A stretch of DNA of 64,000 nt from Gammaproteobacteria bacterium (GTDB lineage Bacteria > Pseudomonadota > Gammaproteobacteria > Burkholderiales > Gallionellaceae): contig JAHJNJ010000034.1 of the NCBI GenBank assembly GCA_018820925.1, forward strand, positions 1 through 64,000. Reading direction: 5' to 3'. The position numbers and the translations under genes are program-made. The notes under the pieces were generated by a model, which searched no databases, was not told the origin of the DNA, and saw only the letters and a program-made list of their open reading frames with translations. Below, one piece after another: positions 3 to 31,985 of the stretch; the first letter of the stretch is position 1, and each line of letters opens with the position of its first letter.

Positions 3-1880
3 CTCGAAGTCACCTTCCCGGACCTGGTCATGACCGCAGTCGCGTCGACCACTCCCCAGGTTAACACCAAGGGCGGCTACATCAATGTCAGCGACACCCT
101 CACAAACCAGGGATCGGTCGCCTCGACGGCCAGCGTGCGGGTGGGCTACTACCTGTCGACCGACAACGTCATCACCTCCACGGACACCTTCCTGGGTTAC
201 CGGAGCGTATACACCGTGGCCGCCGGCGCCAGCAACACCAACGCGGGCTATGGCTACTATGCCAACGTACCTGCGGGACTTGCGCCCGGCACTTATTACC
301 TGGGTGCCATCGCCGACTACTCGGGACTGGAAGCAGAAACCGACGAAACCAACAACGGACTGGTCTCGGCCACATCAACACTTGAAGTCACCCTGCCGGA
401 CCTGGTCATGACCGCAGTCGGCTCAACCACCAGCCAGATCAACACAGCGGGCGGCCCCATCTACGTCAGCGACACTCTCAAGAACCAGGGCCCGGTCGCC
501 TCGACGGTCGGCGTGCGGGTGGGCTACTACCTGTCCACGGACGATGTCATCACCACCGCCGACACCTTTCTGGGATACCGTACTTCGTACTCCACGCTTG
601 CCGCCGGCGCCAGCAACAGTGTTACCTCGACCTACGTTACCGTACCCGCCGGATTGACCGTTGGCAGCACCTACTACCTCGGCGCCATCGCCGACTACAC
701 CGGCCTGGAAGCCGAAACCGACGAAACCAACAACGCCCTGGCAGGGGAGGGAGCGACGATCACCGTCACCCAGCCCGACCTGGTCATGACCGCAGTCGGC
801 TCGACCACCAGCCAGGTCAACACGGCGGGCGGCTACATCTACGTCAGCGACACCCTCAAGAACCAGGGAGCGGTTGCCTCGACGGTCAGCGTACGGGTGG
901 GCTACTACCTGTCCACGGACAACATCATCACCACAGCCGACACCTTCCTGGGCTACCGTACTGCAAGCACCGTGGCCGCCGGCGCCAGCAACAGCGTCGC
1001 ATCGAGCTACGTCACCATACCGGCCGGTCTGACCGTTGGCAGCACCTACTACCTCGGCGCCATTGTCGACTACACCGGACTGGAAGCCGAAACCGACGAA
1101 ACCAACAACGCCCTGGCGGGGGTGGGATCGACGATCACCGTCACCCAGCCTGATCTGGTCATGACCGCAGTCGGCTCAACTGCCACCCAAGCCGCCCCCG
1201 GGGGGCTGATCAACGTCAGCGACACCCTCACGAACCAGGGCCCGGTCGCCTCGACGGCGGGCGTACGGGTGGGTTACTACCTGTCGACCGACAACGTCAT
1301 CACCACTGCCGACACCTTCCTGGGCTACCGCTCCGTGGGCACACTGGCCGCCGGCGCCAACAGCACCAACAGCGGCGCGAACTACGCCACCATCCCTGCC
1401 GCAACAGCGGTTGGGACCTACTACCTCGGCGCCATCGCCGACTACAGCGGGCTGCAAGCCGAAACCGACGAGACCAACAACGCCCTGGTCGGCCCGACCA
1501 TCGCCATCGGCCCCGACCTGATCATGACCGGCGTCAGCAGCGCCAGCACCACCGCCGTTCCCGGCTCCGGCATCCTCATCGCCGACACCCTCAAGAACCA
1601 GGGAGCAGGCGCCACCGGCAGCGGCTGCCGCCAGATCGGCTACTACCTGTCGACGGACGCCACCATCACCGGCGCCGACACCCTCATCGGCAGCCGCGAA
1701 TACTGCGGCGCATTGGCCGCCAACGGCAGCAACAACGGAGCCGCGACCAGCGCCACCATCCCCGCAAACCTCGCCGCCGGCAGCTACTACCTCGGCGCCA
1801 TCGCCGACCACACCGGCGTGGATGCTGAAACCGACGAAACCAACAACAGCCTGAGCGGCAGCACCTTGCTGCTCACCCTG
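3..1880 (+). repeat. Five tandem CARDB-coding repeats, period about 375 bp
   Basis: The segment encoding PDLVMTAV...ETDETNN recurs near 20, 395, 775, 1147 and 1510. The copies are very similar at DNA level, including long identical stretches around the sequence encoding LGAIADY. Such near-identical in-frame repeats are prone to copy-number change by recombination. The fifth copy is the most diverged (PDLIMTGV). Confidence 0.85.
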
Positions 1881-3431
1881 CTGCCCAACGCACCGGGCAA
1901 CGTCACGGCCAGTGGCGGCAATGCCAGCGCCACCGTCACCTTCACCGCCCCGGTCGACAACGGCGGCAGCGCCATCACCGGCTACACCGTCACCGCCAGC
2001 CCGGCAGGCGGCGTGGACAGCAATGCCGGCACCCCGGGCCTGAGCCACGTCATCACGGGTCTTGCCAACGGCACCGCCTACACCTTCACCGTCATCGCCA
2101 CCAACAACGCAGGCAACAGCAACGCCTCGGCCGCCTCCAACAGCGTCACCCCGGCCACCGTCCCCGGCGCCCCGGTCATCGGCAGCGCAGTGGCAAACAA
2201 CGCTCAAGCCAGCGTCACCTTCAGCGCACCCGCCGACAACGGCGGCGCCATCATCACCGGCTACACCGTCAGCTCACTCCCGGCCGGCGGCGTGGACAAC
2301 AACGCGGGCACGACCGGCCTGAACCACATCATCACGGGACTCACCAACGGCACCGCCTACACCTTCACCGTGAAAGCCAGCAACAGCGCAGGCAACAGCG
2401 CAGCCTCGGCCGCCTCCAACAGCGTCACCCCCAGCATCAGCGCACCGAACGCCCCGACCAACGTCATCGCTGCCGGCGGCAACACCCAGGCCAGCGTCGG
2501 CTTCAGCGCACCGACCAACGACGGCGGCTCGGCCATCACCGGTTACACCGTCAGTTCCAACCCGGCAGGGCTGGTGGACAGCAACGCGGGCACAACCAGC
2601 CTGACGCACCTCATGACCGGGCTGGTCGGCGGCACCACCTACACCTTTACCGTTACGGCCACCAATGCGGCGGGTAGCAGTGCGCCGTCGGTGCCGTCGA
2701 ATAGTGTGACGGCGGGCGGGAGTGCGGTGCAGGCGTATTATGTTTATACTGATCATCTCGACACGCCTCGGCAGATCACCGATACATCAGGAAACATCGT
2801 CTGGCAATGGGATAGCAGTGATCCGTTCGGGAACAATGTTCCGAATGAAAACCCAACGGGGCAAGGGACATTCACTTGCAACTTGAGGCATCCTGGCCAG
2901 TACTTTGATATTGAGACAGGTCTATTCCAGAACTTTCATAGAGACTACGACTCGGCCACAGGAAGGTACATTCAATCTGATCCGATAGGGTTGCGTGGTG
3001 GCATCAACGGATACACCTATGTTGAAAATAACCCGCTGAGCAAAATTGATCCGACTGGCGAATTTGCATTTATTCTTCCTGCGCTACCGGCAATTGGAAG
3101 CTGGATTGCAGCAAATGCAGCGAATATCGGAATTGGTGTAGGTCTTGGGGTGTTGATGAGTACGCCAGGTGATACTGCTGACTCACCTGAAAAGAAAGCT
3201 GATCGCAACGCATATCACAAAGTATGCGATGAACCGCCCCCACCAAATCTCAACGAATGTGATGATATTCGCTGGAAAATCGGACGTGCAAATAGGTGCA
3301 TCGGTATGCGCAAAGCCTATATGTCAAAATGGAACGATGAATATGAGGGGCACTATAATCAAATAGCTAATAGAGAAAGTGAATTGGCAAGATTGGAGAG
3401 ATTGTTGAAGGAGAAATGTTGTGGAAAATAA
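3..3431 (+). CDS. Rhs-type protein with CARDB and FN3 repeats, 5' end outside window
   Basis: The reading frame is already open at the window edge and the first residues match an internal repeat, so the N-terminus is missing. In order it shows five CARDB-like beta-sandwich repeats beginning PDLVMTAV (about bases 20-1870), three fibronectin type III domains (about 1880-2710), an Rhs-associated core (YVYTDHLDTPRQI, then GQYFDIETGLFQN and YIQSDPIGLRGG, about 2730-3060) and a variable tip rich in Cys and charged residues. By family knowledge the Rhs core encloses a C-terminal effector. The tip here is not one I can name. Composition drops from GC-rich repeats to AT-rich tip near 2730, as expected for exchanged tips. 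The next gene overlaps the stop by 11 bases. Confidence 0.85.
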   Translation, partial: LEVTFPDLVMTAVASTTPQVNTKGGYINVSDTLTNQGSVASTASVRVGYYLSTDNVITSTDTFLGYRSVYTVAAGASNTNAGYGYYANVPAGLAPGTYYLGAIADYSGLEAETDETNNGLVSATSTLEVTLPDLVMTAVGSTTSQINTAGGPIYVSDTLKNQGPVASTVGVRVGYYLSTDDVITTADTFLGYRTSYSTLAAGASNSVTSTYVTVPAGLTVGSTYYLGAIADYTGLEAETDETNNALAGEGATITVTQPDLVMTAVGSTTSQVNTAGGYIYVSDTLKNQGAVASTVSVRVGYYLSTDNIITTADTFLGYRTASTVAAGASNSVASSYVTIPAGLTVGSTYYLGAIVDYTGLEAETDETNNALAGVGSTITVTQPDLVMTAVGSTATQAAPGGLINVSDTLTNQGPVASTAGVRVGYYLSTDNVITTADTFLGYRSVGTLAAGANSTNSGANYATIPAATAVGTYYLGAIADYSGLQAETDETNNALVGPTIAIGPDLIMTGVSSASTTAVPGSGILIADTLKNQGAGATGSGCRQIGYYLSTDATITGADTLIGSREYCGALAANGSNNGAATSATIPANLAAGSYYLGAIADHTGVDAETDETNNSLSGSTLLLTLLPNAPGNVTASGGNASATVTFTAPVDNGGSAITGYTVTASPAGGVDSNAGTPGLSHVITGLANGTAYTFTVIATNNAGNSNASAASNSVTPATVPGAPVIGSAVANNAQASVTFSAPADNGGAIITGYTVSSLPAGGVDNNAGTTGLNHIITGLTNGTAYTFTVKASNSAGNSAASAASNSVTPSISAPNAPTNVIAAGGNTQASVGFSAPTNDGGSAITGYTVSSNPAGLVDSNAGTTSLTHLMTGLVGGTTYTFTVTATNAAGSSAPSVPSNSVTAGGSAVQAYYVYTDHLDTPRQITDTSGNIVWQWDSSDPFGNNVPNENPTGQGTFTCNLRHPGQYFDIETGLFQNFHRDYDSATGRYIQSDPIGLRGGINGYTYVENNPLSKIDPTGEFAFILPALPAIGSWIAANAANIGIGVGLGVLMSTPGDTADSPEKKADRNAYHKVCDEPPPPNLNECDDIRWKIGRANRCIGMRKAYMSKWNDEYEGHYNQIANRESELARLERLLKEKCCGK

Positions 3432-7155: not shown

Positions 7156-10100
7156 ATGAAAATCAGATTAATGTTGCAAAAGGCATTGTTAGCGTTGGGT
7201 TTGGTAATTAGCCATGCAGCAATGGGTGTCATGCCGGACTTCTACTCGGAACCGGGACTGAATCCTGCAAGAGCTTATAGCCAATCAACTGATTATGATT
7301 TGGTCGACCCCTTTACCGGGAAGCTTCAGTTGCATCACACAGACATATTTATTCCAGGCAATGGCGGGCTGAATCTTGATGTTGGTAGATCCTATACTGC
7401 AGGCGACAGTTTCGGGACAGTCAATGCTTGGACGACGGGTTTTGGGTATGTGTATCGAAGGGCAGCAGAACCCCTTTGTACGCAAAAGGGTTTTTATACC
7501 GGCAATAAGTACAACCCCGTCTTGGTTCTTGCTGATGGTAGTCGACATATTCTTGCTGATGCTTATCCCGCCGATTCCTTTTTGTACATCACAAATCAAT
7601 TTTGGAAAGCGACCTGCATAAACACACCCAGCGGAGGATTGATTGTTACCTCCCCTGAAGGCAAAGTTTATGACATGACCTACTTTGCGGCTGATACAAC
7701 CTATCAGAAATGGTATGTCACAAAAATCACTGATAGAAATGGAAACTGGATAAACATCAGTTATGACAACTTCAATGATAATGGGGCGACCATCACAAGT
7801 GTGAGTACCAGTGATGGTCGCTCGTTGACCTACAGCTACGATACGATCATCGATAGTTACAAAAGACTGTCATCGATAACTGATGGCACCAGAACATGGC
7901 GCTATGCCTACATTGACAATACAACTCCAGGTTTTAGTGGGCTAAGCGTAGGGACCTTCCTGCTGAATAAAGTTACTTTGCCCGATAATACATTTTGGGA
8001 ATATACCTATAACGGCAACCTAGGAACTGCGGCGGGCAGCTACCAGATAAATAGCGTCACGACTCCGCAACTTGGAAAGGTGACCTATACATACAGTTTT
8101 GTGAATTTTATTGCGGCTATCGGACGACTGCCAGATGAAGTGATATCGTCAAGATCGATAGCTGGAGTAGGGTCCTGGAGTTATTCCTATGTCCCAGGGA
8201 CTAACGTTGGTGAGTTGGATACAACTACGGTGACCGCGCCCGGAAACCTTCAAAAGATAGTCTATAAACACTATGGACAAAACGCTATTTTGACTGCAGG
8301 CGATATATGGAAAATTGGTCTACTTGCTGAAAAAACAGTTGGCACTGTTCAATCCGAAAGTTACAGTTGGACGCCGCTGCAAATCAGCAATCAGAATGAT
8401 ACACGGACATTTACTTGGGTGCCTATAGGTACTTATTTCTACGCGCCCCGACTTTCTTCAAAGACCATTACACGTGATGGCGCGACATATAGCACCACGT
8501 TTAGTGGCTTTGATAGTTATAACAATCCTGGAGTAGTAGCAGAAGTTGGGCCTAATGGTGAAACCAGGACAACCAACGTAACCTACAACAATACAGATGC
8601 GGCCACGAAATGGGTCTTGCACCAAGTCAAAAACGAGACGGTTGTTGGAGGAAAATCGACGACGCGCCAATTCGATGCGGACCACAACCTGCAATCGATC
8701 ACAGTGGATGGCGTGACAACCAGCTATACCTATAAGCCGAATGTCACGAATGGGACTGAAAATGGCACCATAGCTACCATGACTTTGCCCAGGCCAAGCC
8801 AAACACATAGCTACTCCGATTATAAACGTGGCATTCCGCAAACGGAAAATCAGCCTGAGGGCATCACCATCAACCGCATAGTCAGCGATGCGGGTACTGT
8901 TCTATCCGTAACGAACGGCAGGAGATACACAACCAGCTATACCTATGACGGTCTGAATCGCCTCAAAACAATCACCTATCCCGCAGGGCACAATTTTGTA
9001 AGGATTGACTACAACACGGCCACCAGCAAAACCGCCACTCGCGGCGATCTGGTCGAGCACACGACCTATGATGGATTCGGCAGGCCGGAGAGTGTCACGT
9101 TAGGCGGGATTCAAACCACCTACCATTATGACCCATTGGGAAGGATGGACTTCAAATCCAATCCCGGCAGCACCTTGGGTACAAGGTATTCTTACGATGC
9201 GCTGGACAGGGTGAAAACCATCACCTATGCAGATAACAGCTTCAAGAGCTACACCTATGATGCGGCGACGACCTCAATACAAGATGAGCGCAAAAACACC
9301 ACGACTTATGCATATCGTGCCTATGGCGACCCCGACAAGACTTTCCTGATGCAAATCAACGCGCCGGTGTCTGCCGCGAACATTGCGATCACCCGCACCA
9401 CCCGAGACCAGATCGAAAGCGTAAGACAAGGCACCACCCTGACCAGAGGCTATTTTTATTATCCGACTGGATACTTGAAAACCGTAACAGACCCTGAAAT
9501 CGGCACGACCACCTATGGCCGCGACGAAGCCGGGAATATGACCACGCGTTCTGTTGGCACCTCTGGTACCACGATATATGCCTATGATTTGCAAAATCGC
9601 TTGAAAGATGTGACGTATCCCGGAACTACGCCGCCTATTCATCACACCTACACGTATACCAACAAATTGAAGACAGTCAGTGCGGGTGCCTCTACGCGGA
9701 TCCTGGATTACGACGCAACTGACAATCTGATATCGGACGTACTCTCGATTGATGGCCACAACTTCAGCGCCGGTTATGGATACAACACCAACGACCAACT
9801 GAGTACCCTCACCTACCCGCAATCCGGCAAGACAGTCTCCTTCTCGCCAGACGTACTTGGCAGACCCACTGGCGCAACCGCTTACGCAAGCAATGTGACC
9901 TACTGGCCATCCGGGCAAGTGAAGCAAATCAGCTATCAGAATGGCACCGTCTCCAACTACGATCAGAAATCCGATCGTCTGTGGCCGAAATCATTCACCA
10001 CCCAAAAGGCTGGGTCGACGCCTTACGTCAACAACACTTACGAATACGACTTCGGCGGTAATCTCAAAACGATTACTGACACGAACAACCCGGATTTCAA

Positions 10101-10587
10101 TCGAAGCTTCGATTACGACGCAATCAATCGCCTGACCACGATCAACGGACCATGGGGGCCGGGCATCATCGACTATGACGGGGTAGGGAACATCCAGAGA
10201 CAGACCTACGGCACAACTGGACTGACCTACACGTACTCACCGCAGAAAAACCAGTTGACTACTGTCAGCGGCTTGCGCAATACCAGCTACACCTACGACA
10301 CCAGCTTCGGCAACATCACTGGGGATGGGGCCGGCAAGTCCTACGGTTACGACGATGCTCCCAATCTTACCAGTATCAATGACAGCAACACCGGCACTGC
10401 AATTAGCTACACCTACGATGGATTGAGCAAACGCACCAAGGTCATCAAGAACGGTGTAACCACCTACGAGTTTTACGACTTCAGCGGAAAACTCCTGACC
10501 GAATACACGCCTGGCACCCCCAACAACCTGGTGGAGTACATCTACCTGGGCAACATGCGCATCGCACAGCGCATGTCCTATCAGTAG
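7156..10587 (+). CDS. Exported YD-repeat (Rhs) protein lacking the Rhs core
   Basis: A 1143-aa protein with a Sec signal peptide (about residues 1-24) followed by the typical Rhs opening DPFTGKLQLHHTDIFIPG and a long array of YD repeats (for example YTYDGLNRLKTITYP, YSYDALDRVKTITY, YDAINRLTTINGPW). These build the hollow beta-cage that encapsulates toxins. It ends at LVEYIYLGNMRIAQRMSYQ, the position where Rhs proteins normally continue into the conserved core and tip. The missing core and tip are found at the corresponding point in the next gene, 111 bases downstream. There is no internal frameshift. Either the pair works as two polypeptides or the locus is a rearranged Rhs. Confidence 0.88.
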   Translation: MKIRLMLQKALLALGLVISHAAMGVMPDFYSEPGLNPARAYSQSTDYDLVDPFTGKLQLHHTDIFIPGNGGLNLDVGRSYTAGDSFGTVNAWTTGFGYVYRRAAEPLCTQKGFYTGNKYNPVLVLADGSRHILADAYPADSFLYITNQFWKATCINTPSGGLIVTSPEGKVYDMTYFAADTTYQKWYVTKITDRNGNWINISYDNFNDNGATITSVSTSDGRSLTYSYDTIIDSYKRLSSITDGTRTWRYAYIDNTTPGFSGLSVGTFLLNKVTLPDNTFWEYTYNGNLGTAAGSYQINSVTTPQLGKVTYTYSFVNFIAAIGRLPDEVISSRSIAGVGSWSYSYVPGTNVGELDTTTVTAPGNLQKIVYKHYGQNAILTAGDIWKIGLLAEKTVGTVQSESYSWTPLQISNQNDTRTFTWVPIGTYFYAPRLSSKTITRDGATYSTTFSGFDSYNNPGVVAEVGPNGETRTTNVTYNNTDAATKWVLHQVKNETVVGGKSTTRQFDADHNLQSITVDGVTTSYTYKPNVTNGTENGTIATMTLPRPSQTHSYSDYKRGIPQTENQPEGITINRIVSDAGTVLSVTNGRRYTTSYTYDGLNRLKTITYPAGHNFVRIDYNTATSKTATRGDLVEHTTYDGFGRPESVTLGGIQTTYHYDPLGRMDFKSNPGSTLGTRYSYDALDRVKTITYADNSFKSYTYDAATTSIQDERKNTTTYAYRAYGDPDKTFLMQINAPVSAANIAITRTTRDQIESVRQGTTLTRGYFYYPTGYLKTVTDPEIGTTTYGRDEAGNMTTRSVGTSGTTIYAYDLQNRLKDVTYPGTTPPIHHTYTYTNKLKTVSAGASTRILDYDATDNLISDVLSIDGHNFSAGYGYNTNDQLSTLTYPQSGKTVSFSPDVLGRPTGATAYASNVTYWPSGQVKQISYQNGTVSNYDQKSDRLWPKSFTTQKAGSTPYVNNTYEYDFGGNLKTITDTNNPDFNRSFDYDAINRLTTINGPWGPGIIDYDGVGNIQRQTYGTTGLTYTYSPQKNQLTTVSGLRNTSYTYDTSFGNITGDGAGKSYGYDDAPNLTSINDSNTGTAISYTYDGLSKRTKVIKNGVTTYEFYDFSGKLLTEYTPGTPNNLVEYIYLGNMRIAQRMSYQ

Positions 10588-10698: not shown

Positions 10699-12591
10699 GT
10701 GAAATACATATTGAGCCGCTTACGCAACTTTGTATTGTTGTTGGCAATGATGGGCTGGATGGCCGAGGCGGCGGCGGCGGGCACAGTGGTCATGCCTCCT
10801 AATCCCGTAGCTGTCAATTGGGCAACTGTGATGCCTGCCATCTTGACTATCCTTCTTGATGACGATTCGAATGATCCGGTTGACCAATCACCCACAACGA
10901 CTACACTTGCCACATCAGTCAATCCATCAGTTGCTGGACAAGCTGTCACCTTAACTGCGGTAGTGACAGGGAGCTCACCAATCGGCATCGTCAACTTCAT
11001 GGATGATGCGAGCAGCTTGGGATCGGCCACCATAGCAGCAGGCCAGGCCACTCTTCACTACACCTTCATCAACGTCGGGCCCCATAACCTGAAGGCGGTT
11101 TATACCGGCGACACAAACAACCTCACTAGCACCTCAGCCGCCGTTGTGGAAACGATCACCGTTGCGACCAGCAGCACTAGCTTGGCTGTGACGCCGAGTA
11201 CCGTTGCAACCGGCCAAGCCGCTACACTGACAGCCACTTTGTCCGGTGCACTGCCCAGTGGCACCGTTACCTTCACGGATGGAGCCGGCAAAACAATGAC
11301 TACCGACGTGGGCGCAGGGACAGCCACCATCCCTATCACCTACAACGCCGTCGGTACATACAACCTGACTGCCACATATAGTGGGGATACCAACAACACT
11401 GCCAGCGCGTCAGTGCCCGTTGCGCTGACAGTGAAACTACCCAGTAGCACCAGCCTGACGGCAACACCAACTACATTGCTGGCTGGACAATTTCTCACCT
11501 TGACCGCCACGGTAATCGGCACGAGTCCGACGGGCGCCGTCCATTTCTATGATGGGGCAACCGACCTCGGAGCTGGCACCATAGCTGCAGGCCAGGCCAC
11601 ATTCAGTCATGCCTTCGCCACAGCGGGAACGCATACCGTGACCGCAACCTATACTGGAGATGCCAACCTCGCCCCTAGCACATCGGCGTCTGTCAGCATT
11701 ACCGTTGCCGCAGAAAAGATCACCTACTACCACAACGACATCAGCGGCACCCCGATGGCGGCAACGGATGCGGCGGGTACTTTGCTCTGGCAAGAAAGCT
11801 ATCGCCCCTATGGCGACCCGATGCAGCCGCCAGTTGCTGATAACAACATCTGGTTCACCGGCAAGCCCTACGACAAGGACAGCGGGCTGAGTTATATGGG
11901 GGCGAGGTATTACGATCCGCTGCTGGGTCGCTTCATGGGCATGGACCCTAAAGGCTTCGCCGAGGAAAACCTGCACAGCTTCAATCGCTACGCCTATGCC
12001 AACAACAATCCGAACAAGTTTGTCGATCCGGATGGACACAGTCCTGTGGATATCGCGTTCTTGGCGTATGATTTAGGCAAGCTTGGCATGGCGGTATACA
12101 ACGGAGCTGGGATCGGTGAAGCGGCGGTGGATGTGGCACTCAGTGTGGTGGGTGTTGCAAGTCCTATTCCTGGCACAGGGCAGGCGATTAAGGCGGCCAG
12201 GGCGGCTGAACATGGCGTTGAGGCAGTTCGGGCGGCTGAGAAGGCTGGCGAAGTAGCAAAGGGCGCAAGCAAGGTAGGTCCAGCCACGGACAAAGCTGGC
12301 AACGAGATTGGTCGGATTATCGTGGACTCCAAGGGCAACGCGATGATTGAGCCGGTCGGTGGTCGCACCGTTGCTGCAGGCAAAGGCGGTGTTGATACGC
12401 ACACGCTCTATCCCAACGGTTCGAACTATCAGCGGCTAAACCCTCAGGGGCATGCGAACAACCCGACGCCCCACGGGCACGGGCATGCGCCTGGCACTGG
12501 ACCCGGAATGAAAGGCCAAGGCTCGTCGCTCGACGTTAACGGGAATGCTGTACCATCGAATAGCTCTGATGCACATTGGCCCATTAATTAA
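10699..12591 (+). CDS. Exported Ig-like repeat protein with Rhs core and type-24-like toxin tip
   Basis: A 630-aa protein with a GTG start preceded by AAGGAA. In order: signal peptide (about 1-27), three Ig-like repeats of the [10 protein letters not shown]...VYTGDTN kind (about 58-337), an Rhs core ([17 protein letters not shown] to [12 protein letters not shown], about 340-425) and a tip. After a short hydrophobic Ala/Val-rich linker the tip ends in [18 protein letters not shown], a His-rich [17 protein letters not shown] and SSDAHWPIN, which I associate with polymorphic toxin type 24 (from memory, unverified). The core resumes exactly where the preceding YD-repeat protein stops. The architecture parallels the first Rhs-type gene in the window. 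Confidence 0.85.
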
Positions 12592-25506: not shown

Positions 25507-26226
25507 ATGTCTTCACCCGATACAAACAATCTTGCAGTACTAGTTGATGCAGATAATGCTCAGGCATCTGTCATAACCGAACTTCTGGCTGAAGTAGCAA
25601 GGTACGGTACCGCGACAATTAAACGTGCCTACGGTGATTGGACAACGCCGAATCTAGCTGGCTGGAAGGATGTCCTGCATGTTCATGCGATTCAACCTAT
25701 CCAACAGTTCAGATATACAACTGGGAAGAACGCAACAGACTCCGCACTGATCATTGAGGCAATGGACCTGCTGCACGGCGGGAAAGTGGACGGATTCTGC
25801 CTAGTCTCGTCGGATAGTGACTTTACTCGTCTTGCTACAAGAATTCGTGAAGCCGGATTGTCGGTCTATGGGTTTGGCGAACAGAAGACACCAAAGCCTT
25901 TCGTAGCTGCTTGTGACAAGTTCATCTTCACAGAAATTCTTCGCAAGCCTGCTCCTGGAATTCCCGCGGAAGTATCTACGCAAGTTCTTCTTAAGCCCCT
26001 CTTAAATTCAGCCATTGCTGCTGCGGCACAAGACGATGGGTGGGCGCTGCTGGCTGTAGTAGGTGGCTTGCTACTGAAGGCCGATCCATCATTTGATCCT
26101 CGCAACTTTGGCTTCAAGAAGCTTGGTGAGTTGGTTAAAGCACAGCCATATCTTGAAGTGAAATCGACTTCTTCTAACGAAGGCTCCCAGATCGCACACA
26201 TCACAGTTCGCGTAAAGGAAACCTAA
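25507..26226 (+). CDS. NYN-domain ribonuclease with LOTUS/OST-HTH domain
   Basis: 239 aa. The N-terminal 140 residues form a LabA/DUF88-type NYN (PIN-like) domain with the acidic metal site AVLVDADNAQ, GKNATDSALIIEAMDLLHGG and CLVSSDSDFTRLATRIREAG. The C-terminal segment (LLNSAIAAAAQDDGWALLAV then FDPRNFGFKKLGELVKA) is an OST-HTH/LOTUS RNA-binding domain. Combination proteins of this kind are thought to act on RNA. It is monocistronic here. Whether it serves defence or housekeeping cannot be seen. Confidence 0.9.
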   Translation: MSSPDTNNLAVLVDADNAQASVITELLAEVARYGTATIKRAYGDWTTPNLAGWKDVLHVHAIQPIQQFRYTTGKNATDSALIIEAMDLLHGGKVDGFCLVSSDSDFTRLATRIREAGLSVYGFGEQKTPKPFVAACDKFIFTEILRKPAPGIPAEVSTQVLLKPLLNSAIAAAAQDDGWALLAVVGGLLLKADPSFDPRNFGFKKLGELVKAQPYLEVKSTSSNEGSQIAHITVRVKET

Positions 26227-26957: not shown

Positions 26958-28772
26958 ATGGAGATTCGAGTGGCAGCAAAGATCAAACGTCTTCATATCC
27001 TGCGCTATCGAGGCATCCGAGAGCTGACTTGGCGGCCAAGCTCTGGACTCAACTTGCTGCTCGGCGGTGGCAACGTTGGCAAGACGACCCTCCTAGAGGC
27101 TATCGGCCTGCTGCTGAACCCGACCACGAGCTACACCTTGGCGGACTCGGACTACTTCGGTCGTCGCGTCGAAGACGAGTTTCTGATCGAGGCGGTCATG
27201 GCTCTCCCATGCGAGGTCAATCGCCAGCCAGGCATGGCTTGGCCATGGGAGTGGAATGGTCAGGACGCGATACTCGCTGGGGTCGAGGCGCTGGACGATT
27301 CGGCAGCACCTGGTGCTGCCCGGCCGTCGGTGTATAAGATCCGGGTTCGCGGCACGGCGGATCTTGAGCTTGTCTACGAGATCGTCCAGCCCGATGACAA
27401 CGTTGGTGCGTTTTCGGCAGGGCTGCGCCGCGAGATTGGACTCGTGCGGCTGCTTGGGGACGATCGCAATGACCGGGACCTAAGGCTAATACAGGGATCC
27501 AACCTTGATAGGTTAATAAATGACCGTGGGCTGCGTGCGCGGCTTGGGCACGAACTTGCCGCCGACTCCGTCGATCGCCACTTGGACGCAGAGCCGCGTG
27601 CCCGCCTGCAACTTCTCGACGAGCAGTTTGTGGCACGCCGACTGCCAACCCAGCTTGGCCTGGCGTTCACTGGTAGCGCTGGCCAGTCGATCAACGCACT
27701 GATTGGCCTCACTGCGGACAAGGAAGGGGTGGTGCTGCCGCTCGCGACCTGGGGTGCTGGCACTCGCCGCCTTGCTGCACTGGCGATCGGCGACTCCCTG
27801 CAAGATGGCCATCCGATCACACTTATCGATGAACTTGAGCGCGGGCTTGAGCCGTACCGCCAGCGCCAGCTTATCCAACGAATTGCTGCGGGGCAGGGGC
27901 AGACCTTTGTCACCACCCACAGCGCCTCGGTCCTGAGCGCCGCTATGGGTGCATCTGTCTGGTATGTCGACACCGAAGGCCAAGTTGGCGAGCTCCCGAC
28001 CGACAAGATTTCTCGACATCTGGCTCGGGATCCGGAGGCCTTCTTGGCGCGGCTCTCGATCGTCGCCGAAGGCGCGACCGAGGTCGGGTTCCTTCGAGAA
28101 CAACTCGATCATGCCCTTCCCGGCTGGAGGGACCTAGGGGTGCACGTCACCGATGGTGGTGGCAATGACGATGCTCTGGCACTCCTTGAAGCACTGTCGC
28201 TCGGCGGCGTGAAGTTCGGCGGCTTCGTCGATAATGAGAACCGCCACGCTGGGCGCTGGCGCGCGGTGAAGGAACGCGTGCGGCAGCTCGTGTTCCAGTG
28301 GGGGGAAGGAAACATGGAGCAGAACATCATCCCGATGTTTCCCGCTGGACAGATCCGAGCACTGATTGAGGATCCGGCCGAGGAAAAAACGGGGCTGCGC
28401 ATGCGCACGCTCGCTGACAGATTGGAGACGGCAGAGACGACCTTTGATGCGTTGACCGCGCGAGCGCGAGAGCGCCTTGGCGCGGGCGCCGATCAGTGGA
28501 CCCACCCGCTGATTCCCTGGATCATTGACGCGGCATCGGGCAAGGTGCCGGACGCCCTCCAGGATGCACCACCAGCGCAGCGCAATCCCTTCAAGGGGCA
28601 TGCGTCGGCTTGGTTCAAAAGCATTGAAGGCGGGCACGAGCTTGCCCGAAAAGTACGTGCTTCGGATGTTTGGGACCAGCATCTGGGGGAGCTCCTGAGG
28701 CCATTCTTAGAAGCGGTTGTGCAGACTCAGGCGGAGCCTGCCCCGATTGCGCATCGGGAAAATGGCGAGTGA
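26958..28772 (+). CDS. gajA: Gabija-type OLD-family ATPase/nuclease (GajA)
   Basis: 604 aa. The N-terminal ABC-type ATPase has Walker A LLGGGNVGKTTLLEAIG and Walker B-like LIDELERGLEPYRQRQ with the H-loop TFVTTHSASVLSA. From about residue 365 a TOPRIM nuclease domain follows (IVAEGATEVGFL with the metal Glu, then GGGNDDALALLEA and FVDNENRH). This is the OLD/GajA plan and the size matches GajA. GajA is an endonuclease activated when phage replication depletes nucleotides. Its gene overlaps the helicase start by GTGA. GC content is clearly higher than in upstream genes, suggesting transfer. Confidence 0.88.
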   Translation: MEIRVAAKIKRLHILRYRGIRELTWRPSSGLNLLLGGGNVGKTTLLEAIGLLLNPTTSYTLADSDYFGRRVEDEFLIEAVMALPCEVNRQPGMAWPWEWNGQDAILAGVEALDDSAAPGAARPSVYKIRVRGTADLELVYEIVQPDDNVGAFSAGLRREIGLVRLLGDDRNDRDLRLIQGSNLDRLINDRGLRARLGHELAADSVDRHLDAEPRARLQLLDEQFVARRLPTQLGLAFTGSAGQSINALIGLTADKEGVVLPLATWGAGTRRLAALAIGDSLQDGHPITLIDELERGLEPYRQRQLIQRIAAGQGQTFVTTHSASVLSAAMGASVWYVDTEGQVGELPTDKISRHLARDPEAFLARLSIVAEGATEVGFLREQLDHALPGWRDLGVHVTDGGGNDDALALLEALSLGGVKFGGFVDNENRHAGRWRAVKERVRQLVFQWGEGNMEQNIIPMFPAGQIRALIEDPAEEKTGLRMRTLADRLETAETTFDALTARARERLGAGADQWTHPLIPWIIDAASGKVPDALQDAPPAQRNPFKGHASAWFKSIEGGHELARKVRASDVWDQHLGELLRPFLEAVVQTQAEPAPIAHRENGE

Positions 28773-30292
28773 GCGACGCGTCTGTCTCTGAGGCGCTGCG
28801 CTCGAACGCGAACCGCGTTGTTGTCGAGGCGCCGGCAGGCACCGGCAAGACATTCCAGGCGGCCAGCTACGCCCGGCATGCGGCCATAGAGCTCTGCAAA
28901 GGACAAAAGGTCCTGATCTTGGCGCACACCCACGCCGCTTGTGGCGTCTTCTCGTCAAGGACTGCGGATCTTGGTCGGCGCTTGGAGATCGGGACCATAG
29001 ACTCGCTGGTGGCGACGATTGCAAAGGTCTACCACCGAGCACTCAATTTGCCGGCGGACATCCCTGCGTGGTCGATTGAGCGCGGGGCCGACTGCTATCC
29101 CGAACTGGCCAGACGTGTGCGCCTCCTGCTCGACCGTTCGCCCGGTGTCGCTGGTGCCATGGTGGAGCGACACCCAGTGGTGATCTGTGACGAGCACCAG
29201 GACGCCAGTGCCGATCAACACGGGATAGTTGAAGCCCTCGCGCGGGCGGGCGCCCGGATGCGTTTTTTCGGTGACCCAATGCAGGCCATCTTCACCGTTG
29301 GGCGGGAGAGGGAGGCGCAGTTGCGCCGCTGGCAGGAACTCATCGCGGCCTCAGACTCGAATGAGCCGTTGGACACCGCCCACCGCTGGGCTGTTGGCTC
29401 GCCGGAACTTGGCGCTTGGGTCCTTGAACAGCGAGAGCGGCTACGCGCCGGCGACGTTGTGGACCTTCGAGGTGGCTTTCCTCGAGGGCTGCAGGTGTTC
29501 CGCGCTGACAACCGGGCACCTCGATATGGCGGATTTCAGTTGGACGCGGATGTGCGTCGCCCGATCAACGCGTTCGTTCGAAACAGTCCAAACCACTTAG
29601 TGCTGACCCCTCACAACGCGACCGTGCTTGGACTCAACGCATTCTTCGGCTGGCGAATCCCTATCTGGGAGGGGCACACCAGAGACGCGCTGAGCAACCT
29701 CCTGTCTACCTGCCGACGTAGCGCTGGCGATCCGGTGGCTCTTGGCAAGGCAATGTGCATATTCCTTGAGGTTGTGGGGAAAGGCTTCTCGGCGACAGCC
29801 TATGGCAACCGCCTGATCCAAGAGCTGGAGACTAAATGCGTCAAGCCGAGCCGCGGAAAGCCCGCTGAGATTCAGTCGATTGCGCACCTGATCCTGCAGG
29901 AACCAAACCACGTTGGTGTCGGTGCCGCGATCAATCGGGTCCATCACCTGATGCGTACCAGCCAGCACTTCGGTGACATTCGGATCGACCTGAGCCAGGA
30001 GTTCGCTGAGGCGCGTCAGATTCAGATGGACCCAGAGATCAGCACGGTACTTGCAAGGCAGGCGCATAAGCGCGGCACGCGACATACCGAGATGCCGCCA
30101 AGGGTCATTAGCACGATCCACAAGTCGAAGGGACTCGAAACCGTCAACGCGATCGTTCTCCCCTGTGACGCAAATACCCTCGCGAACAACGAGAAGAACC
30201 GCTGCCTGCTCTACGTGGCCATGAGCAGGGCCTGCGAATCGCTGGCATTGGTGGTGCCGCAAGTCAATCCTTCGCCGCTCTTCTTGGTTTAG
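28769..30292 (+). CDS. gajB: Gabija-type UvrD-like helicase (GajB)
   Basis: 507 aa from a GTG start overlapping the gajA stop. Superfamily 1 helicase motifs appear in order: Walker A VEAPAGTGKT, motif Ia LAHTHAACGVFS, motif II VVICDEHQDAS, motif III FFGDPMQAIF, motif V VISTIHKSKGLETVNAIVLP and motif VI LYVAMSRACESL. The middle of the protein is poorly conserved with UvrD, as is usual for GajB. GajB is the partner of GajA in the Gabija phage-defence complex. Confidence 0.87.
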   Translation: MSDASVSEALRSNANRVVVEAPAGTGKTFQAASYARHAAIELCKGQKVLILAHTHAACGVFSSRTADLGRRLEIGTIDSLVATIAKVYHRALNLPADIPAWSIERGADCYPELARRVRLLLDRSPGVAGAMVERHPVVICDEHQDASADQHGIVEALARAGARMRFFGDPMQAIFTVGREREAQLRRWQELIAASDSNEPLDTAHRWAVGSPELGAWVLEQRERLRAGDVVDLRGGFPRGLQVFRADNRAPRYGGFQLDADVRRPINAFVRNSPNHLVLTPHNATVLGLNAFFGWRIPIWEGHTRDALSNLLSTCRRSAGDPVALGKAMCIFLEVVGKGFSATAYGNRLIQELETKCVKPSRGKPAEIQSIAHLILQEPNHVGVGAAINRVHHLMRTSQHFGDIRIDLSQEFAEARQIQMDPEISTVLARQAHKRGTRHTEMPPRVISTIHKSKGLETVNAIVLPCDANTLANNEKNRCLLYVAMSRACESLALVVPQVNPSPLFLV

Positions 30293-30386
30293 CTGACGCT
30301 TGCGAGCGCCGACGTTCTCATCAACTCGCCCAAGTGAACCTCTGCAGCGCCTTGACAACGCGCCAGACATCGTGTCTGCTCGGGGC

Positions 30387-31484
30387 ATGGCTGGCATCTA
30401 CACGCTTAACGCACGAGGCAACGTGATGCTCCCAGTTCTCCGGGACCACTACGCTTGGACCGATGCGCGAACCTTCCATGAAATCCAGCGCTTCCACAGC
30501 GATTTTCTCGACATCCTTCGCGCGAAGGGCATCGACTATTCGTCGTTGAGAAGTGCATTGACCCCGCAATCGACGAAGCATGAGGTGGCGTTTCTCTTTG
30601 ACGAGCGACGCTGCGACGACACGTTCGTTCCGGGCGTGGAATGCGCGGACGCGCTGTTCAGGGTTCTCGATCGCGAAACGACGCACAGCATTCTTGGCGG
30701 TGAGCTGATCGATAATCGGGACGAGATCGCACGGCCGCTGCTTCGCCGTTCAGCGGTTGTCGCCAAGGATCTGAACTTCAAGCATCCATGCTTCTGCTAT
30801 GTCCTCTACGTTAACAACCTCTCCGAGAGCCACGTCGCCACCATCGTCCGCAAGCTGCGGGTGCACAAGGCCTATCTCGGTTACGTTCCTTGCTCATACG
30901 CAAGCTTGGCGAAGACTTTTGTGTCGATGCACCTCATGAACCTCGTGATCAAGCAGGGCGACTCCGTCATTCTCGGGCATGAAGATGACCGACCGAATAC
31001 CGAGAACCACAACCTGCATCTTCATGACTACACGGCACTCGGCCTCCGGCTGAAGAGCCTTCAGTCGATGTACTTCAACACTTTCCTGTCCTACAAGCCG
31101 GAGTGGATACTGATGGAGGAGTCGGACGACGATCTTGAAATCGCGCTGCGGGCGATGTCCAGGGCCGTTGCCCCTCTCTCCGAGTTCACGGTTGTCATCG
31201 CTGACGACAAGTTCGAGAAGTACCTAAAGACCTCGAAGCTCGGGAAACTGAAGAAGGCTGGCCTCGCCGCCTTGAGCAAGGAACAGCTGGAGGCGGCGAT
31301 CCGCGAAAAGATACGGATGAACTACCTGTACAACATGGAATGGGTAGATAGGCCCACGCACCAGCTTAGCAAGTTCAACATCATGCTGGAATTCCCAAGG
31401 CTGGACGGATACCCGGAGCGCATGATCGTTGTTCTCGAATACAGGCCTGCCGAGCGCGTGCTGCGGCTGGTGACGGTTTCGTGA
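30387..31484 (+). CDS. Unrecognised third gene of the Gabija-like operon
   Basis: About 365 aa from ATG (MAGIYTLNARGNVMLPVL); a TTG start eight bases after the gajB stop would extend it to 394. It follows on the same strand with the same GC-rich codon use. The protein is soluble, alpha/beta, with CFCYVLYVNNLSESHVATIV, a Leu/His-rich TENHNLHLHDYTALGLRL and a charged helical region before the end. No known domain is apparent and canonical Gabija has only two genes. It may be an accessory factor, a regulator or an unrelated passenger. Confidence 0.75.
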   Translation: MAGIYTLNARGNVMLPVLRDHYAWTDARTFHEIQRFHSDFLDILRAKGIDYSSLRSALTPQSTKHEVAFLFDERRCDDTFVPGVECADALFRVLDRETTHSILGGELIDNRDEIARPLLRRSAVVAKDLNFKHPCFCYVLYVNNLSESHVATIVRKLRVHKAYLGYVPCSYASLAKTFVSMHLMNLVIKQGDSVILGHEDDRPNTENHNLHLHDYTALGLRLKSLQSMYFNTFLSYKPEWILMEESDDDLEIALRAMSRAVAPLSEFTVVIADDKFEKYLKTSKLGKLKKAGLAALSKEQLEAAIREKIRMNYLYNMEWVDRPTHQLSKFNIMLEFPRLDGYPERMIVVLEYRPAERVLRLVTVS

Positions 31485-31852
31485 GCGGGCAAGGCCCGGC
31501 GCGAAGGCTAAGCCCTTCCCGGCCACCAATTCTTGGACGGCAAGAAGAGAATCGTCGTCACGGATCGGTCGGCTCCAATGATGGGAGCTCGCGTTCGATA
31601 AGTGAACAAGCTGCCGTTTAAGGTGATCGCCTGCAAGGGCAGCTAACAGTTGTATTTCTGCCAGATTCAGCCAATCAGTCGAATGGCGGCAATGGCCTGA
31701 ATATCTGACAATGCCCGGACTACTACACCGTAGTTAAGGTCAAAGCATATTTCGTTGAACAGCAAGAACTTCCGTCGGAAAAAAGCTGCCGAAAAGCTGC
31801 CAACACCATGTCTTTCCATGCCATTTTTTAGGCATTGTGCAGTTTTGTGTTA
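31485..31852. other. Gene-free stretch between defence operon and tRNA-Ser
   Basis: No plausible gene. A short imperfect duplication (AAAAAGCTGCCGAAAAGCTG region near 31780-31800) is visible, and the stretch ends at the terminator of tRNA-Ser. A junction of integrated and core DNA could lie here, but no duplicate of the tRNA end was found in the window. Confidence 0.5.

Positions 31853-31894: not shown

Positions 31895-31985
<91 letters not shown>

Follow-up and report, generated by a model that had tools for sequence, protein, structure and literature searches.

A gene behind a Gabija pair in a Gallionellaceae contig belongs to an undescribed defence-island family with a predicted C-terminal ribonuclease domain

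Introduction

Gabija, which ranks among the commonest anti-phage systems, is present in more than 15% of sequenced genomes and is made, in its canonical form, of two proteins assembled in a 4:4 complex (PMC10781630). In the stretch analysed here (“the window”, 64,000 nucleotides of contig JAHJNJ010000034.1 from a Gallionellaceae genome), two genes identified as a Gabija pair with PADLOC profiles, gajA and gajB, are followed by a third gene without any Gabija profile match, and this third gene is the subject of the present work.

A third gene behind a defence ATPase is also found in ptuXYZ, where PtuZ is a two-part protein with a C-terminal domain of the BECR (barnase/EndoU/colicin/RelE) type (PMC11980606), an architecture resembling that predicted for the window protein; the main text of that paper does not mention Gabija. 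The window protein differs from PtuZ by its predicted ferredoxin-like middle part and by its partners, which are GajA and GajB or none. Membership in ptuXYZ was rejected, as the window has GajA and GajB in place of the DUF262 protein PtuX and the PtuA-like PtuY. CdiA-CT Kp342 (PDB 6CP9), a BECR tRNase, is the tail of a CdiA protein that is delivered into neighbouring cells and paired with a CdiI immunity protein, whereas the window protein is a stand-alone product of 365 amino acids (aa) in which no such parts were seen. Membership among the contact-dependent growth inhibition (CDI) toxins was rejected as well: there is no CdiA, CdiB, or CdiI context, the neighbours scanned in the window being GajA, GajB, an NYN protein, an integrase, and one unmatched open reading frame (ORF). 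PARIS (AriA + AriB) offers a works-like analogy, since this phage defence system combines a tRNase effector with an ATPase of the ABC/OLD type (PMC12409363, which presents tRNA inactivation as a common defence route); AriA, however, is distinct from GajA, AriB belongs to the Toprim nucleases, and a link between GajAB and the third protein would be hypothetical.

The Third Gene and Its Family

In the original prediction, made from the DNA letters, an uncharacterised gene was said to lie directly behind gajB on the same strand with no terminator in between. Such an ORF does end at 31484, 94 bp after gajB if read from the ATG at 30387, and no terminator-like site was found on the + strand between the two genes. 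The start had been left ambiguous between this ATG and a TTG at 30300; ATG 30387 is the better start, since five close relatives (63–83% identical) begin at the same residue, four of them being so annotated in their records, and since an in-frame stop lies at most 29 codons upstream of this position in 19 of the 24 loci checked (the other five being the window, L013, L018, L020, and L031; loci are designated here by L numbers). The distant Kocuria protein cannot decide the start. The gene is under selection and is not a chance ORF, as its ratio of nonsynonymous to synonymous substitution rates (dN/dS) is 0.08–0.31 in nine pairs. A high guanine plus cytosine content equal to that of the Gabija pair had also been claimed, which is at best roughly right: 56.5% for the third gene versus 62.0% for gajA, 61.5% for gajB, and a window mean of 54.7%.

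We gathered 28 loci including the window, namely five plasmid records, one viral contig, 19 genome contigs from a pattern scan of 84,980 species genomes, and two further genomes. The homologues are 85% down to about 27% identical to the window protein, and their hosts are mainly Pseudomonadota, apart from a Kocuria plasmid and two contigs labelled Methanosphaera and Bryobacterales, respectively; the latter label is doubtful because 2 kb of that contig match the Pseudomonadales contig L019 at 99.8% identity. The gene is rare: with the window's own genome counted in each sample, it was found in 2 of 158 genomes of the family, 2 of 399 of the order, and 1 of 398 of the phylum (the own genome, in a single-protein query), and the class sample (369 genomes) added nothing to the own genome except one short fragment. 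Not all copies are intact, as L027 carries an insertion with transposase-like ORFs (recognised by eye), L031 is split over two frames, and L006 and L028 are cut; the L029 copy breaks off near its contig end.

The window protein had no match in Pfam, PADLOC, or NCBIfam up to E 1, nor in PHROGs or PDB sequences up to E 10, and searches with family-wide profiles, or with the C-terminal domain by itself, returned chance-level matches only. A search of 50,697 phage records turned up nothing related to the window protein, the Kocuria protein, or L030, and E. coli genomes contained no similar DNA. Among the Gabija papers listed (subscription papers and preprints lay outside the scope), none reported this gene, and four homologue accessions were without a paper. 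The gene is uncharacterised, as predicted, the 365-aa protein being without match in the profile libraries; it is a real gene of an undescribed family, absent from the libraries searched.

Protein Architecture

The protein is predicted to have two parts (Table 1). Both fold-alignment rows that fall wholly on the C-terminal part are toxins of one superfamily, and residues 269..365 of the window protein align with residues 151..257 of Kp342, which would place K275 on K157 and R360 and T363 on R252 and T255, assuming no gap near the ends. The residues listed for Kp342 are K157, Y160, H170, R252, and T255 (PMC9086364, Table 1); by the alignment end points, K275, Y279, R360, and T363 are in register, and H170 is without clear counterpart. 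Y279 follows K275 by four positions in the window and by three in several relatives; this spacing is four in EC3006 and three in Kp342. Among 12 chosen C-terminal domains, K275, K284, R360, and T363 are kept in all and Y279 in 11, and K275, Y279, and K284 are kept in 13 of 14 representatives of the whole family. One has to keep in mind that these five residues played no part in finding the fold match. We regard the C-terminal domain as a likely, still predicted, BECR ribonuclease (RNase).

Between gajB and the downstream tRNA-Ser gene, the window has no same-strand ORF of at least 80 aa other than the third gene; small ORFs exist, of which one, overlapping the third-gene stop, is not conserved in 21 loci, and the upstream partners and neighbours of the gene vary among loci. 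As no conserved partner gene of the antitoxin kind is seen beside it, the N-terminal part may itself act as sensor or restraint.

Linkage to Gabija

In the window, gajA and gajB are adjacent and are matched by PADLOC profiles over residues 7–570 of 604 (PDLC04168) and 13–496 of 507 (PDLC04173), respectively; they are a Gabija pair, and they overlap by GTGA as predicted, the gajB start at 28769 lying inside the end of gajA at 28772. A complete gajA and gajB pair stands beside the third gene in 6 of the 28 loci (the window, L021, L022, L023, L027, and L031, the last with one ORF in between). When loci with common surroundings are merged (L002/L003/L004/L016, L019/L028, L020/L024, and L021/L022/L023), 21 contexts are left, of which four have the pair. 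Two Gabija subtypes are involved, PDLC04168/04173 in the window and L021–23 and PDLC00102/00148 in L027 and L031, and both gene orders occur, with gajAB upstream in the window, L027, and L031 and downstream in L021–23. PADLOC was run on the pairs of the window, L021, L027, and L031, those of L022 and L023 being 95–99% identical to that of L021. The pairs of L027 and L031 were missed by tblastn with the window GajA and GajB, and were recognised by eye and confirmed by PADLOC; a renewed search, in which pairs of either subtype were compared with every locus, revealed no additional one, other Gabija subtypes not being systematically searched.

The best support for the linkage comes from L021, L022, and L023, whose sole shared stretch in the DNA examined is a block of about 4.6 kb, 94–99% identical, that contains the third gene, gajA, gajB, and nothing else; the three genes travel as one block in this lineage of three genomes. 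In a tree of the intact proteins, the window and L021–23 fall in different well-supported groups. L013 shares positions 30254-31582 of the window, so that the last 39 bases of gajB precede its third gene, and no gajAB was found on its 8.9-kb contig; this tail codes for NPSP, which likewise ends the gajB of Caballeronia.

For statistics, we assumed Gabija-neighbour rates of 1, 3, 5, and 10% per context. At 3% (5%), P is 0.0032 (0.019) for 4 of 21 contexts with the window and 0.021 (0.075) for 3 of 20 without it, and at 10%, significance is lost for both counts (P 0.15 and 0.32, respectively); the value from a naive genome-wide null is far smaller, but such a null is blind to defence islands. 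The two gajA subtypes occur in 6 of 249 (own genome counted) and 4 of 249 genomes of the phylum sample. Altogether, the linkage is suggestive.

In the locus DNA examined, by reading and by PADLOC on chosen genes, 22 of the 28 loci have no gajAB of either subtype; this DNA is short on one side in L014, L018, L028, L029, and L030. Whole genomes or records were searched for 20 of these 22 loci (five plasmid records, one viral contig, and 14 bacterial or archaeal genomes): GajA PDLC00102 was found in none, and GajA PDLC04168 in three, away from the third gene (genomes of L016, L017, and L024; E below 1e-170). Three of the 14 whole genomes therefore have gajA at a distance; compared with the phylum sample, in which 5 of the 248 other genomes have it, this frequency is raised (P 0.0025), with lineage and genome size uncontrolled. 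Conversely, the gajAB of plasmid loci L009 and L011 have no third gene, and gajAB reads intact beside the broken copies of L027 and L031. L009 and L011, together with the 22 loci, speak against the third gene as a fixed component of Gabija; because of these and of its other defence neighbours, we see it as a mobile gene of defence islands that is frequently coupled to Gabija, rather than as a fixed third subunit. The original interpretation is borne out in part: the gene adjoins gajAB in 4 of 21 contexts and does not in 22 of 28 loci, and among the roles first suggested (accessory component, regulator, or cargo), accessory component or cargo fits this recurrence, and nothing points to a regulator.

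Other Defence Neighbours and Mobility

Far from never sitting by defence genes, the homologues frequently have them as neighbours: PADLOC recognised one within about 6–7 kb in 11 of 21 contexts, the four Gabija contexts included. Only 28 chosen neighbour proteins were scanned directly besides those of the window, and single matches do not show complete systems. Besides Gabija, these neighbours are AbiH (L013), PDC-S31 (L020), JetA (L005), PDC-M02A (L030), RmrA + SduA (L015), a PD-T4-6-like kinase (L026), and IetA/IetS (L014, with the same stretch in L002 at 96% DNA identity). Gabija is the commonest, with four contexts, followed by IetAS with two that share DNA. By this recurrence of known defence genes around it, the third gene is a defence-island gene.

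The mobile unit can be small, since L005, which lies by Wadjet genes, has nothing in common with L021/L023 beyond the gene itself and flanks of about 100 bp on its upstream side and 36 bp on its downstream side. The third gene seems, from sequence comparison, to bring its own 5′ stretch along, this stretch being common to L013, L014, L015 (from 30346), and a relic in L010 despite differing upstream surroundings; it carries TTGACA, and a promoter scan made no call there.

Proposed Mechanism and Alternatives

The reading we prefer, and hold with about even confidence, is that the third gene is a self-contained anti-phage effector of a new two-part family. The C-terminal part, about 97 residues, would form the BECR RNase domain, its nearest likeness being the tRNA-cleaving CdiA-CT Kp342 toxin, and the N-terminal part, about 260 residues, would hold the RNase silent and sense infection. 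Phage infection would trip the effector, tRNA or mRNA would be cut, translation would stop, and few phages would leave the infected cell. The gene moves between defence islands as a small unit; where it is paired with Gabija, it may add RNA-directed growth arrest to DNA cleavage by GajAB when the latter is insufficient or blocked, either as a back-up (two weapons in one island) or under the control of GajAB.

Two other readings concern the link to Gabija. That the gene is an independent single-gene defence system, sharing islands with Gabija without functional link, is quite conceivable, if somewhat short of probable: it agrees with the 22 of 28 loci without gajAB, with the whole genomes or records (GajA PDLC00102 in 0 of 20, and PDLC04168 in three, outside the loci), with L005, where the gene and short flanks are by Wadjet genes, with the accompanying 5′ stretch, and with the intact-looking gajAB next to the broken copies of L027 and L031. 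It does not sit well with Gabija being the commonest recognised neighbour, with the three-gene block moving as one in three genomes, with the gajB tail kept in L013, or with the uncontrolled excess of distant gajA. Conversely, the repeated presence of the gene beside two Gabija subtypes and in either gene order, the same block, and the known OLD-type ATPase systems with tRNase effectors (PMC12409363) speak for a true third component of a Gabija variant, in which GajAB would restrain or license the BECR effector by analogy with AriA and AriB in PARIS; we find this unlikely, given the homologues that persist without adjoining gajAB, the relatives L009 and L011 that have gajAB without the gene, and the broken copies beside intact-looking pairs. 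Slightly more doubtful still is a fuller version, a three-part variant whose BECR-type tRNase would be an exchangeable cassette checked or licensed by GajAB; the locus would then cut phage DNA and also arrest translation upon failure or sabotage of GajAB, and the cassette would serve other defence systems too.

The remaining alternatives concern the protein itself. A toxin-antitoxin-like addiction gene or cargo of mobile elements, kept for the stability of the element rather than for phage defence, would be in keeping with homologues on five plasmids and in one contig with phage tail-like genes (by eye), with integrase-like genes (by eye) adjoining the gene in L013, L017, L020, and L024, with the predicted BECR-like domain, and with the four broken copies (L006, L027, L028, and L031); we nevertheless judge it improbable, as no same-strand partner ORF of at least 80 aa lies between gajB and the tRNA, the small ORF over the stop is not conserved, and upstream partners differ while defence genes are frequent neighbours. 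The C-terminal likeness could also be a coincidental alpha/beta arrangement, and the protein could have another role, such as sensing nucleotides or processing DNA for defence. What weighs against a BECR assignment is that no BECR Pfam family was matched by the 12 C-terminal domains up to E 10 or by 17 full-length members up to E 5; still, the two alignment rows confined to this part both represent toxins from a single superfamily, and K, Y, R, and T, all conserved, fall about on published catalytic positions, which makes coincidence a rather poor bet.

Other Features of the Locus

Table 1. Features of the third-gene locus, with positions in the window.
Feature	Position	Strand	Evidence
gajA, OLD-family ATPase/nuclease, 604 aa	26958..28772	+	PADLOC GajA PDLC04168 2e-66; AAA_21 5e-18
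gajB, UvrD-type helicase, 507 aa, GTG start 28769	28769..30292	+	PADLOC GajB PDLC04173 2e-46; UvrD-helicase 8e-14
gajB tail surviving in L013 upstream of its third gene	30254..30292	+	shared block 30254-31582
5′ stretch conserved among loci (TTGACA at 30352-30357), candidate promoter belonging to the gene	30341..30386	+	common to L013, L014, L015, L010 relic
Third gene, 365 aa, ATG start 30387; proposed two-part defence effector	30387..31484	+	homologues in 27 other loci; start comparison; dN/dS
Middle part, residues 62-241: ferredoxin-like (ACT/ribosomal S6-like) arrangement; proposed sensor or restraint	30570..31109	+	
C-terminal domain, residues 269-365: predicted BECR/RelE-like RNase fold	31191..31481	+	
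Codons of K275, Y279, K284, candidate catalytic residues	31209..31238	+	conservation; Kp342 K157, Y160 (PMC9086364 Table 1)
Codons of R360-x-x-T363, candidate catalytic pair	31464..31475	+	12/12 conserved; Kp342 R252, T255; fold-alignment end points
tRNA-Ser(GGA), edge of region, possible integration hotspot	31895..31985	−	ARAGORN

The tRNA-Ser gene is a possible integration hotspot: a match across tRNA-Ser(GGA) and gloB is present in 24 of 30 further congeneric genomes, and a tRNA-Ser (9039-9128) likewise adjoins the third gene in L029. At what looks to be TOPRIM motif two, the window GajA (26958-28772) has VDNEN and the L021 GajA has DGD, and the window protein matches the TOPRIM family of Pfam weakly (E 0.099); judging from these residues, the nuclease site of this GajA subtype may be altered. 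Between the integrase and the Gabija pair, positions 25507-26226 encode a protein with NYN and OST-HTH/LOTUS domains (6e-38 and 7e-15) and a match to PHROG 37744, and large RHS/YD-repeat-like proteins were recognised by eye from translations near the window start (30-3431, 7156-10587, and 10699-12591).

Several genes near the third gene in other loci also deserve a mention. In four Burkholderiaceae loci, a DUF5677 gene lies just upstream of it (L002 7042-7773; same place in L003, L004, and L016) and shares DNA along with it across the four. In L025, a RES-domain gene (8751-10004) with a sub-threshold HEPN_RES match at its N-terminus overlaps the third-gene start by 4 bp. UvrD-type helicases that score on GajB profiles are found near the third gene in L035 (9907-12693), L004 (10431-13853), and L026 (11532-13613), with no GajA in the locus DNA examined; such helicases may be a broader partner class of the third gene.

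Significance

Gabija is regarded as consisting of two genes; a third one that recurs and has a predicted RNA-cutting domain would, if true, give some Gabija loci a second, RNA-directed line of defence. The definition of the family provides specific residues for testing, and since the gene shifts as a small unit between neighbours that include Gabija, Wadjet, and IetAS, it can help to show how effectors are swapped in defence islands.
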